From: Patescibacteria group bacterium
GTDB taxonomy: Bacteria; Patescibacteriota; Minisyncoccia; Phycocordibacterales; UBA1006
Direction of reading: 5' to 3'
NCBI GenBank assembly: GCA_020428645.1
Contig: JAGQMN010000001.1
Location: forward strand, 64,532-98,238
Length of the DNA: 33,707 nucleotides
The translations under genes were made by a program, and so were the position numbers. Shown piece by piece: positions 20,716 through 27,780 of the stretch. The notes under the pieces are model-generated. The model saw only the letters and a program-made list of their open reading frames with translations, was not told where the DNA came from and made no database searches. Every line of letters starts with the position of its first letter. The first letter of the stretch is position 1.

Positions 20716-21093
20716 GTGAACGAACGAGAAATGGTTCAAGGAAATTGGACATGTTGTGAGTGTAACGCGGATATTAAGGAACTTCCTTTTAATCCACGAA
20801 GTACTAACGATTTAAAATGTAATGCGTGTATGTCAAAGGGTCGCCCTCAACGGGAAACCTTTGAAGGTGACTGGTCATGTAGTAAATGTCAATCACCAAT
20901 TACGTTATTACCATTTAAACCAGAAGATGTAGCAAATCTTACCTGTAAGAATTGCTACCTTAAGGAAAAAACAGCAAGCCGTATGGTAGAAGGAAACTGG
21001 ACATGTATGGATTGTGGAAACGCGATTACTTCGCTTCCATTTAATCCACGTGACCCTGAATCTGTAAGCTGCCGGGACTGCTACCAAAAATAA
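20716..21093 (+). CDS. Triple zinc-ribbon protein
   Basis: 125 residues made of three tandem modules of about 42 residues. Each has GxW-(S/T)-CxxC, then LPFxP, then a closing CxxC. Cysteines: C13/C16 with C35/C38, C55/C58 with C77/C80, C97/C100 with C119/C122. Each module should bind one zinc, giving three zinc ribbons. No other domain or signal peptide is present, so it is probably a cytosolic nucleic-acid or ribosome-associated protein (inference). The start is GTG at 20716; an ATG at 20731 is possible but would drop only a short N-terminus. A structured leader precedes it and a strong terminator follows. Confidence 0.78.
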   Translation: MNEREMVQGNWTCCECNADIKELPFNPRSTNDLKCNACMSKGRPQRETFEGDWSCSKCQSPITLLPFKPEDVANLTCKNCYLKEKTASRMVEGNWTCMDCGNAITSLPFNPRDPESVSCRDCYQK

Positions 21094-24661: not shown

Positions 24662-25420
24662 TTATTGGAGCTGTTCTTGGTTTGCAAAGATGGTATCTGC
24701 AAAATTCCAGAATGCCTCGTTTCCTTCTTCTCGCGCTACACACTCGCTCGCAATTGCTGCAGGCATGGCTTGCGGGTGGAATGAGAGTGGAAGGTGTCGG
24801 TATACCCAGGTAACATCTGTGTGTTCATCAACGATTTGTTTAAAGGTATCGTGTACCCGTGCACAGAATGGACATTCGAGGTCAGAGTATTCGATAATAG
24901 TAATTGATGGACTTCCTGAACCTCGGTAGTGATCAGTTACAGGATCAAATGGTCGGAAGAGTCGCACAACTTCGTAATCAAGTTCGGTGATTTCAAATTG
25001 TGCGAGTGTTTCTTGATCAATTGAACCTTGTTCTTCAATAGTGTTGAGAATGAGTTCAAAGAGTTCGTATGGGTATGCTCCACTAACAGGGATTACTTGT
25101 CGATCAGTCACAATCACGTTGAATGGTGTACCAATACCCGCCATTTCAGCAAAACTTGCAATAGCATTCGTTTCATTCACATCTTCGAGAATGAGCGGTT
25201 CGATGGTGGTATCCTCGATACACTGATCGTAGGTTCGTCCACCAATACCGGCGTCTTTGGCAGTTTGCTTAATGAACCCTTCAGGTCCATCTGGTACTGA
25301 TGGTTTGAGGAGTCCTCCGCCACCAAATAGTGATACCGCAAGAGCAGCAATTGATAACAAGATGGCGATGTTCGCCTTGAGGTCGGTATTCAGACCTGGT
25401 GTTTTTTGTTCTGTTTCCAT
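24662..25420 (-). CDS. DsbA-like thioredoxin-fold protein with circularly permuted halves
   Basis: 252 residues. A membrane anchor lies at about 17-35, so the protein should face the cell exterior. The thioredoxin-type CPFC motif (C183-C186) sits in IIEYSDLECPFCARVH near the C-terminus and runs into WVYRHLPL and AFWNFADTIFANQ, where the protein stops. The part that normally follows is at the N-terminus: AKDAGIGGRTYDQCIED, then GIGTPFNVIV with the cis-proline P99, then VSGAYPYELFELI. In DsbA/Thioredoxin_4 relatives the order is CxxC first and cis-Pro second, so this gene looks circularly permuted. It is expected to form or isomerise disulfides. It is divergent from a CxxC membrane protein at 25482. 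The start is supported by a -10 box 7 nt upstream. Confidence 0.85.
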   Translation of the reverse strand: METEQKTPGLNTDLKANIAILLSIAALAVSLFGGGGLLKPSVPDGPEGFIKQTAKDAGIGGRTYDQCIEDTTIEPLILEDVNETNAIASFAEMAGIGTPFNVIVTDRQVIPVSGAYPYELFELILNTIEEQGSIDQETLAQFEITELDYEVVRLFRPFDPVTDHYRGSGSPSITIIEYSDLECPFCARVHDTFKQIVDEHTDVTWVYRHLPLSFHPQAMPAAIASECVAREEGNEAFWNFADTIFANQEQLQ

Positions 25421-25481: not shown

Positions 25482-26021
25482 ATGGTGAATACGCTCCTAC
25501 ACATTTTGAAACGAAGGTGGAACACTATTGCACTCGTGTGTGGTAGTTGTGCGATATTTTTAATTCTACGTATTGTTCCTGTATACGGAATTTTGAAAAC
25601 ATCGTACGCACTGCCTGGGCTCTCGTTCGTTCGCAAGATTGATATTTTTCTCGAGTACGTCATATATTCTTTTACGAGGATTTCATTCCATGAACAGTTG
25701 TTGGTTATTGCTCTCTCAATTCTTACTACGTTAAACATTATTCTGTTTATCGTCTTTACACAACGTCAGCAAAAACTATTGTCGAAGCGAAGTTTTATTG
25801 CGAGTGTTTCAGGAATGGTACTCGGACTCTTTGGGGTGGGGTGCGTTTCTTGCGGTGTGTTGGTGTTAGCACCACTCATTACTGCGCTTGGGCTCGGTGC
25901 ATACCTTGGTACGTTTACTCAGTATGCACTACTGATAGCATACATTGGACTTGGATTCGTTATTGTATCTAGTTTATATCTCCTGAGAAAAATTTCACAA
26001 CCGAATATCTGTTTATCATAA
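25482..26021 (+). CDS. Four-helix membrane protein with two CxxC motifs
   Basis: 179 residues from the ATG at 25482; the longer open frame upstream is antisense to the DsbA-like gene and is not used. Four membrane segments: TIALVCGSCAIFLILRI, LLVIALSILTTLNIILFIVF, LGLFGVGCVSCGVLVLAPL and LLIAYIGLGFVIVSSLYLL. Two CxxC pairs lie in or at the edge of helices (C20-C23 and C121-C124). With the divergent DsbA-like gene this suggests a DsbB/VKOR-like electron acceptor, but it matches neither family by recognisable motifs. Function inferred from context only. Confidence 0.65.
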   Translation: MVNTLLHILKRRWNTIALVCGSCAIFLILRIVPVYGILKTSYALPGLSFVRKIDIFLEYVIYSFTRISFHEQLLVIALSILTTLNIILFIVFTQRQQKLLSKRSFIASVSGMVLGLFGVGCVSCGVLVLAPLITALGLGAYLGTFTQYALLIAYIGLGFVIVSSLYLLRKISQPNICLS

Positions 26022-26099: not shown

Positions 26100-26921
26100 A
26101 TGAATAAATTATTTTTTCTATTACTTTGCACACCTTTCCTAACATTAGCTCAGGTTGGAATAGGAACAACTAGTCCAGCACCTTATTCTAATCTTGAAAT
26201 TTCCTCAGGTACTGATGAAAATCTAGGTGTTGTATTGCCGCAAGTGGCATTAACTTCTACAGACAGTTGTTCACCGCAGGGTGTGCATACACAAGCTATG
26301 TTGGTATACAATACTTCGACATCTAACGGTTTGGAAGAGGGCCCTTATGTTGATGATGGTACTCAATGGATGAGTTTGATAACAAATACCCCTGAGGTAT
26401 ATGCTACCTCATTAGAGGTTAATACCACTATTAATTCAAGTTCATGGGTTACTTTGTGTGAAAAAACCTTTACAGCTGAACATGATAATTTTTTAGTTTT
26501 CGTATCAGCTTCTGGTATTGGAATGACCAGCTCCATGGCGACTATCAATTTCAGAGTTGTTGATTCTAATGATCCTAATACAGCATTGTGTGGAACATGG
26601 ACACATATGCAGGATAATGATTTTTACTACAATAGTATCAGCACCAAACAGAAGGAAACAACCGGTATCAAGCCAATTGCTCCAGCACCTATTGGAGAAT
26701 TGTTTCAAGATACCTTAACAGGCAGAATGACCGGAGGAACAATAGTAACCTGGAACACAGGGATTACTGGGTTTCCTATAGAGTTAGAAAAAGGAACTGA
26801 GTATACCTTGTATTTACAAGCCAGAGTGATGTTATTAACTGGGAGTTCACCAGATGCAAAAGTGTATCCGGTAACCGGAAAGGATTACTCACATACGTCC
26901 TTCTCGGTTCTAGGTTATTAA
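26100..26921 (+). CDS. Secreted Bacteroidota-type surface protein A
   Basis: 273 residues. A signal peptide (MNKLFFLLLCTPFLTLA) is followed by QVGIGTTSPAPYSNLEISSG, then VVLPQVALTSTDS, then AMLVYNT and DDGTQWMSL. This order (QVGIGTxxP, LEV/LEI, L-x-x-P-R/Q-V-x-L-T-x-T, LVYNT, a Trp-containing loop) is what I know from secreted and surface proteins of Flavobacteria and other Bacteroidota. The C-terminal 150 residues are beta-rich and probably a globular domain. It has a tandem paralogue downstream. No sortase, type IX or membrane anchor is visible. The leader is about 50 nt, from a TATAAT at 26036-26041. Confidence 0.75.
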   Translation: MNKLFFLLLCTPFLTLAQVGIGTTSPAPYSNLEISSGTDENLGVVLPQVALTSTDSCSPQGVHTQAMLVYNTSTSNGLEEGPYVDDGTQWMSLITNTPEVYATSLEVNTTINSSSWVTLCEKTFTAEHDNFLVFVSASGIGMTSSMATINFRVVDSNDPNTALCGTWTHMQDNDFYYNSISTKQKETTGIKPIAPAPIGELFQDTLTGRMTGGTIVTWNTGITGFPIELEKGTEYTLYLQARVMLLTGSSPDAKVYPVTGKDYSHTSFSVLGY

Positions 26922-27012: not shown

Positions 27013-27780
27013 GTGAAAAAATTACTATTATTTATGTGTATATGTATTGGAATAATAGATATACATGCTCAGGTTAGCATCGGAAATACTAACCCACAGG
27101 CTGCCTTTGAGGTTGAAAGCATTTCCAGTGGAATTTTAATTCCGAGAGTAACCTTAACTGCGACCAACGTTCAGGCACCTGTAGTCAATCCTACAGGTGG
27201 AGCGCTTCAAGAAAGCACCCTTGTGTACAATACAAATACGGCTGGAACATCACCAAATAACGTGTACCCTGGGTACTACTATTGGCAGAATAACGAATGG
27301 TATAGACTTACCAACTATAAAAAAAACGACTGGGTATTTCTTGCTTCTGATGAAAGTATTACAAGTACCACATTTGTTGATGTTCCGAATATGTCGATTA
27401 CGTTTACAGCGATCAGTGATGAGGTGACGATTCATTTTGATGGCGGTGGTATTGCTTACACAAATTCTTTGTCGTTGGTAAATTTCAGAGTCATAAATGT
27501 CGGAACAGGAACTGTAATACCTTATAGCTATAAACGTACTAATGTTCAAATGCGAGATATATTTTATATTCCCGCGCCAACGAATGCTTATGAGGTTTTT
27601 TCTGTAACTGTTTGGGATTTATCAAACAGTTTTCCAATGCAAAATCTAGTACCAGGCAATACTTACACCATACAATTACAGGCATCCAATGAACTTGTTG
27701 ATGGCACTGTTGGTATTACGATTAATGCAGGATCCTCGCCCTCTACACAAGGATTAAAAATGTGGGTACAACATAATTAA
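27013..27780 (+). CDS. Secreted Bacteroidota-type surface protein B
   Basis: 255 residues with a GTG start, chosen because it gives a proper signal peptide (MKKLLLFMCICIGIIDIHA) ahead of QVSIGNTNPQAAFEVES. ILIPRVTLTATN, STLVYNT and YPGYYYWQNNEWYRL complete the pattern typical of Bacteroidota secreted proteins. The C-terminal beta-rich part resembles that of the preceding gene (VNFRV, then Y-T-x-x-LQA). The two are therefore tandem paralogues with separate transcription units. The TATACT box at 26983-26988 leaves a leader of about 18 nt. Confidence 0.75.
   Translation: MKKLLLFMCICIGIIDIHAQVSIGNTNPQAAFEVESISSGILIPRVTLTATNVQAPVVNPTGGALQESTLVYNTNTAGTSPNNVYPGYYYWQNNEWYRLTNYKKNDWVFLASDESITSTTFVDVPNMSITFTAISDEVTIHFDGGGIAYTNSLSLVNFRVINVGTGTVIPYSYKRTNVQMRDIFYIPAPTNAYEVFSVTVWDLSNSFPMQNLVPGNTYTIQLQASNELVDGTVGITINAGSSPSTQGLKMWVQHN

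Follow-up and report, generated by a model that had tools for sequence, protein, structure and literature searches.

Where enzymes are circularly permuted in nature, the change can usually be traced to one ancient event that separates distant families. For E. coli DsbA, circular permutants have been engineered (Hennecke, Sebbel and Glockshuber 1999, as relayed in PMC12667903 and PMC3281007; PDB 1UN2). The TRXL1 domain of UGGT has an altered topology in which the helical part lies ahead of the thioredoxin part (PMC7687155, PMC8024514), and VKOR and DsbB are related to each other by circular permutation via duplication and deletion (PMC4555120). In this study, we found that the window, by which we mean the whole 33,707-nucleotide stretch of patescibacterial DNA analysed here, contains a gene whose product is very probably a thiol-disulfide oxidoreductase of the DsbA type that has been circularly permuted in nature. 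The modelled protein is membrane-anchored, its two halves would form a full domain, and the order would have arisen by duplication and loss, several times.

Domain order and predicted structure

The minus-strand ORF at 24662-25420 runs for 252 codons without a stop, and its coordinates and strand were confirmed by translation. Together with full-length orthologues, the translation identifies its product as a circularly permuted membrane-anchored DsbA-family protein of 252 aa. The preliminary description of this locus had read the ORF as a DsbA with its two halves swapped, and the translation, a half-match in Pfam and blocks of reversed order in PDB sequences all bear this out. Pfam Thioredoxin_4 matches residues 161-250 (2.2e-12) through profile positions 3-92 of 165 only, that is, the first half of the family. 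When a profile of permuted proteins was searched against all PDB sequences, the matching blocks came in reversed order in 4N30 (query 141-230 to chain 43-131, query 56-118 to chain 149-213), in 3GYK (143-220 to 13-87, 41-120 to 97-171) and in 4PWP (133-207 to 57-135, 42-123 to 163-240). The Thioredoxin_4 model likewise matches twice, in reversed order, within single ORFs of the genomes G262, G217, G063, G002 and G003. The UGGT TRXL1 family (Thioredoxin_12) was rejected as an assignment, as it scored 20.9 bits, below the cut-off of 26.1, and there is no glucosyltransferase context; it is a structural analogue only.

The protein begins with a transmembrane anchor (residues 12-32; 25325-25387, minus strand, as are all features of this gene), which is a helix in the model, and all 75 permuted proteins have a hydrophobic segment ahead of the first half. 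The original C-terminal half (residues 45-131; 25028-25288), delimited by the model and by the reversed-order match to solved DsbAs, holds the rest of the helical domain, the cis-Pro strand, the last strand and the last thioredoxin helix. These residues correspond to the missing second half of Thioredoxin_4, with the helices of the Cys67 motif, the GTP (Gly-Thr-cisPro) loop at residues 97-99 (25124-25132) and the GAYPYELF helix. A linker (residues 132-162; 24935-25027), placed by the model and the alignment, connects what were originally the C and N termini; among the 75 relatives, 13-33 aa separate the profile-matched halves. The original N-terminal half follows (residues 163-252; 24665-24934), as located by the Pfam match, the model and the reversed-order blocks, and comprises the first strands, the CPFC helix, a strand and the first helices of the helical domain, so that the chain end is the new break. 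The boundaries given in the preliminary description, residues 54-123 and 170-252, are slightly tight as compared to the approximate 45-131 and 163-252 of the model, although both halves are present as it had stated.

The CPFC active site occupies residues 183-186 (24863-24874). Its first cysteine, Thr-Pro of the cis-Pro loop, Cys67 (25220-25222) and Cys227 (24740-24742) are each kept in 75/75 permuted proteins, and both catalytic cysteines in 74/75. The one exception (L135; G134 C41:67167-67859) is permuted with CPFS in place of CPFC, although no other Thioredoxin_4 protein was found in its genome, which is 100% complete. Cys67, which is also present in 111/113 ordinary-order proteins, and Cys227 are likely partners in a second, non-catalytic structural disulfide, judging from their conservation; the pair also occurs in ordinary-order relatives.

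An AlphaFold2 model, run on an alignment of 20 permuted relatives only, has a compact fold with a mean pLDDT of 89 (about 97 in the core) and a pTM of 0.80. The membrane helix (12-32) is followed by helices 45-56, 61-68 and 73-90, strands 100-104 and 109-113, helix 118-131 and the linker, after which come strands 164-167 and 173-179, the CPFC helix 184-199, strand 203-209 and helices 218-232 and 234-246. The top PDB match, by both Foldseek (2.5e-5) and VIA-align, is the engineered permutant 1UN2, to which VIA-align aligned 171 of 186 residues (Z 13.7; model 42-252 to chain 1-189), whereas most ordinary DsbA relatives match with Z of 5-8 over about 100 residues, and ordinary DsbAs match one half only. 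Considering the full-length match to 1UN2, the natural cut is predicted to lie at or beside the engineered cut, in the helical-domain loop that joins helices 3 and 4. The model of a distant permuted protein (L089), made from a single sequence, was poor (pLDDT 38) and was left out of the analysis.

Membership in the DsbA family is indicated by the homology of both halves in sequence to DsbA-type proteins and by the features of the model. CPFC lies at the start of the thioredoxin helix 184-199, Thr98-Pro99 forms a putative cis-Pro loop ahead of the third strand (100-104), and a helical insert is made up of helices 218-232, 234-246, 45-56, 61-68 and 73-90, in agreement with the 1UN2 match. The canonical order, with the CxxC half before the cis-Pro half, is absent, and the protein is thus a permuted variant rather than an ordinary member. 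As in 1UN2, the DsbA fold is complete in the model and the termini have moved into the helical domain, so that structure prediction agrees with the permuted DsbA fold first proposed for this ORF.

Distribution of the permuted order

A single-protein query of the genome contigs found no relative, but an alignment query did. With a profile built from 40 permuted proteins, near-full-length matches were counted in 25/397 genomes of the order, across 11 family codes, and in three genomes from elsewhere in the class, outside that order. In one family (f87), 23/79 genomes have a permuted protein, and permuted proteins are also found in other classes of the phylum. When ORFs were sorted with one profile for each half, 75 distinct proteins proved to be permuted and 129 ordinary, and one was a fused A-B-A-B protein (L099). 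The preliminary description had seen one case; with at least 75 distinct proteins of the same order across Patescibacteria, the permuted order is widespread and probably recurrent.

Origin of the permutation

For the trees, the halves were aligned separately and then joined in one order, with no junction column included. Several inner branches of these trees have weak support, and an impression of several origins could also come from gene conversion between the two kinds of paralogue or from occasional reversion; with this reservation, a tree of 188-189 proteins needed 15-23 changes between the two labels, 5-6 of them imposed by branches whose support is 95% or higher. A careful tree of 59 rows needed 10 changes, and a single permuted clade was recovered in 0/200 bootstrap trees. 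The AU test rejected one permuted clade in the 59-row tree (p = 0.0006) and in the larger quick tree (p = 0.0345), and each half alone was non-monophyletic (20 and 15 changes). A Kaiserbacteria-type permuted clade (L036/L037/L117) groups with the ordinary proteins L061 (100/99) and L098 (96/94), and the window's genus is sister to the ordinary L128/L140 (96/87 in the 59-row tree). Several permuted proteins match an ordinary protein best; L122, for example, is 58.8% identical to the ordinary L188 versus 46.7% to its best permuted match. Furthermore, the break points differ by lineage, at profile positions 88-92, about 100, and 111 of 175. In L133 (G046 C14:85193-85849), the break comes about 11 residues later and cuts into the next helix, with no residues lost or duplicated.

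Since monophyly is rejected, supported branches force label changes and break points differ, the permutation probably arose repeatedly in Patescibacteria, as judged from these sequences. As to the number of events, we consider it reasonably likely that DsbA was permuted independently at least 3-5 times, and maybe more often, each time in the same region of the helical domain, which would point to a shared advantage, to a recurrent duplication-deletion route or to both, and that the ordinary enzyme was replaced in many genomes. If true, the advantage could, for example, be that an anchor on the helical cap re-orients the active site.

Two layouts bear on the route. In a Woesearchaeota MAG (L099:2140-3381), two complete DsbA domains lie in tandem (A-B-A-B) in one protein, behind one membrane helix, and in L237 two genes lie head to tail in the same frame with a single stop between them. 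Both layouts fit duplication of the domain with its outer halves lost afterwards and are possible intermediates of permutation, and tandem duplication with deletion is plausibly the route.

One ancient permutation, followed by gene conversion from ordinary paralogues or by reversions, seems unlikely to us, albeit with points in its favour: several permuted lineages are old and widespread, many genomes carry both the permuted and the ordinary form, and deep branches are poorly resolved. Such a single origin is difficult to reconcile with the AU tests on both sets, with the separate non-monophyly of the two halves, with the shifted break points and with permuted proteins that, like L122, are nearer to ordinary ones.

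Function and redox partners

In 14/20 permuted-bearing genomes examined, every match to the Thioredoxin_4 profile, which could miss more divergent DsbA subfamilies, falls in permuted genes. Among these 14 are G007, G029, G046, G063, G134, G163, G203 and G262, at 98-100% completeness. That the permuted gene encodes the sole Thioredoxin_4 protein in these 14 argues that it is a working enzyme, presumably for housekeeping thiol oxidation. A protein that folds as DsbA but has no thiol activity, with a binding or structural role like that of the thioredoxin-like domains of UGGT, is improbable. Its closest natural topological analogue, UGGT TRXL1, does play a structural role (PMC7687155), and a relative in ordinary order is present in the window's genome as well, but CxxC and cis-Pro are kept almost universally and the permuted gene stands as the only Thioredoxin_4 protein in many genomes.

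VKOR was found in 5/5 tested genomes of the window's genus. As a universal partner it was rejected, since outside this genus and one other it was not found in most of the permuted-bearing genomes searched. DsbB, searched in the window's genome only, gave a match on a contig of doubtful membership. By analogy with known pathways, reoxidation by VKOR or DsbB may be proposed. Contig C1 of the window's genome (G000; L002, 1-1388) carries an ordinary DsbA at the contig edge and DsbB. Where compared (versus L023), this contig is 98% identical in DNA to genome G009, whereas the window's contig is about 73% identical to G009; C1 may be a contaminant from binning or have been transferred recently.

Gene neighbourhood

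Permuted full-length orthologues, 48-64% identical, are present in six other genomes of the genus. In 6/6 of these relatives, typA/bipA and a membrane protein flank the permuted gene as in the window, the membrane protein being relocated in L010. Permuted genes are also found in single-contig genomes (G801, G950 and G1037). Chance and assembly error are excluded by the conservation of order and neighbourhood across the genus, and of order across the phylum. Although the genome that holds the window is a draft in 39 contigs, with contamination estimated at 2.8%, the probability of an assembly or binning artefact or of a decaying rearranged gene is negligible, considering that order, open frame and neighbours are kept in six independent relatives, that reversed order recurs in many independent genomes including the single-contig ones, and that the active site is conserved in 74/75 permuted proteins; the original view of a rearrangement rather than decay is upheld.

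The divergently oriented neighbour at 25482-26021 (plus strand), the conserved membrane protein that adjoins the permuted gene in the genus relatives compared, has GC[VL]SCG (Cys-x-Ser-Cys) in a hydrophobic segment and a C-terminal Cys, both invariant, with the motif in 7 sequences. It has no match in Pfam or NCBIfam. One may speculate that it is a redox partner of the permuted protein.

Elsewhere in the window, two secreted proteins, at 26100-26921 and 27013-27780 (both plus strand), start with ...AQVGIGTTSP and ...AQVSIGNTNP, a style which we take to be that of Bacteroidota surface proteins; they have no Pfam match, and weak relatives in L035 and L006. A small protein at 20716-21093 (plus strand) contains three tandem treble-clef zinc-finger repeats (zf_Tbcl_2, three stretches).

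Discussion

In the arrangement we propose, the N-terminal helix would anchor the protein at the outer face of the cytoplasmic membrane. Next would come the half that was originally C-terminal, with helical-domain helices 4-6, the cis-Pro strand, and the last strand and helix. The linker would lead on to the originally N-terminal half, which carries CPFC and stops in the α3-α4 loop of the helical domain. The two halves are predicted to fold together into a complete DsbA domain, in which CPFC beside Thr-cisPro would act on secreted proteins by oxidising their cysteines, and the permuted protein could then be reoxidised by a quinone reductase of the membrane, for example VKOR. The domain would have been duplicated and its outer halves lost, from A-B-A-B to B-A, several times in Patescibacteria and always within the helical insert.

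Here, permuted and ordinary forms coexist in one catalytic family, and there are sister pairs as close as 55-60% identity. These pairs, the possible intermediates and the apparently repeated origins make the duplication-deletion model of permutation directly testable. Because the natural break is predicted to fall where engineers cut E. coli DsbA, what is permitted in the laboratory can be compared with what evolution has used. Domain annotation by linear profiles reports such permuted enzymes as fragments, and Pfam shows half a domain.

The preliminary description knew of no circular permutant in this family. This does not hold for the engineered E. coli DsbA permutants (1UN2) or for the related topology of UGGT TRXL1, but in the open-access literature searched no natural permutant of a catalytic DsbA was found, only engineered ones. 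1UN2 (CPDSBA_Q100T99, E. coli DsbA Q100/T99) has its halves arranged as in the window protein, with the cut in the same helical-domain loop. However, it is a laboratory-made, soluble periplasmic E. coli protein, whereas the window protein is natural, membrane-anchored and 12% identical over the aligned residues. Ordinary DsbA/BdbD/Thioredoxin_4 proteins (P. aeruginosa DsbA2, 4N30; B. subtilis BdbD, 3EU3; patescibacterial paralogues) are homologous in both halves and share CPFC/CPYC, Thr-cisPro, the helical insert and, in the patescibacterial paralogues, the N-terminal anchor; they differ in the order of the halves, and the anchor of the permuted protein joins helix 4 rather than the first strand. 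UGGT TRXL1 (Thioredoxin_12) is also a natural DsbA-like domain of altered topology, with a structural match of Z about 8. It is, however, eukaryotic and part of a large glucosyltransferase, is described as structural or protein-binding rather than catalytic, and has a described topology of helices followed by a whole thioredoxin. VKOR/DsbB provides a precedent for circular permutation in the same pathway, but these are integral membrane four-helix proteins without a thioredoxin fold, and their permutation is an ancient split of two families.
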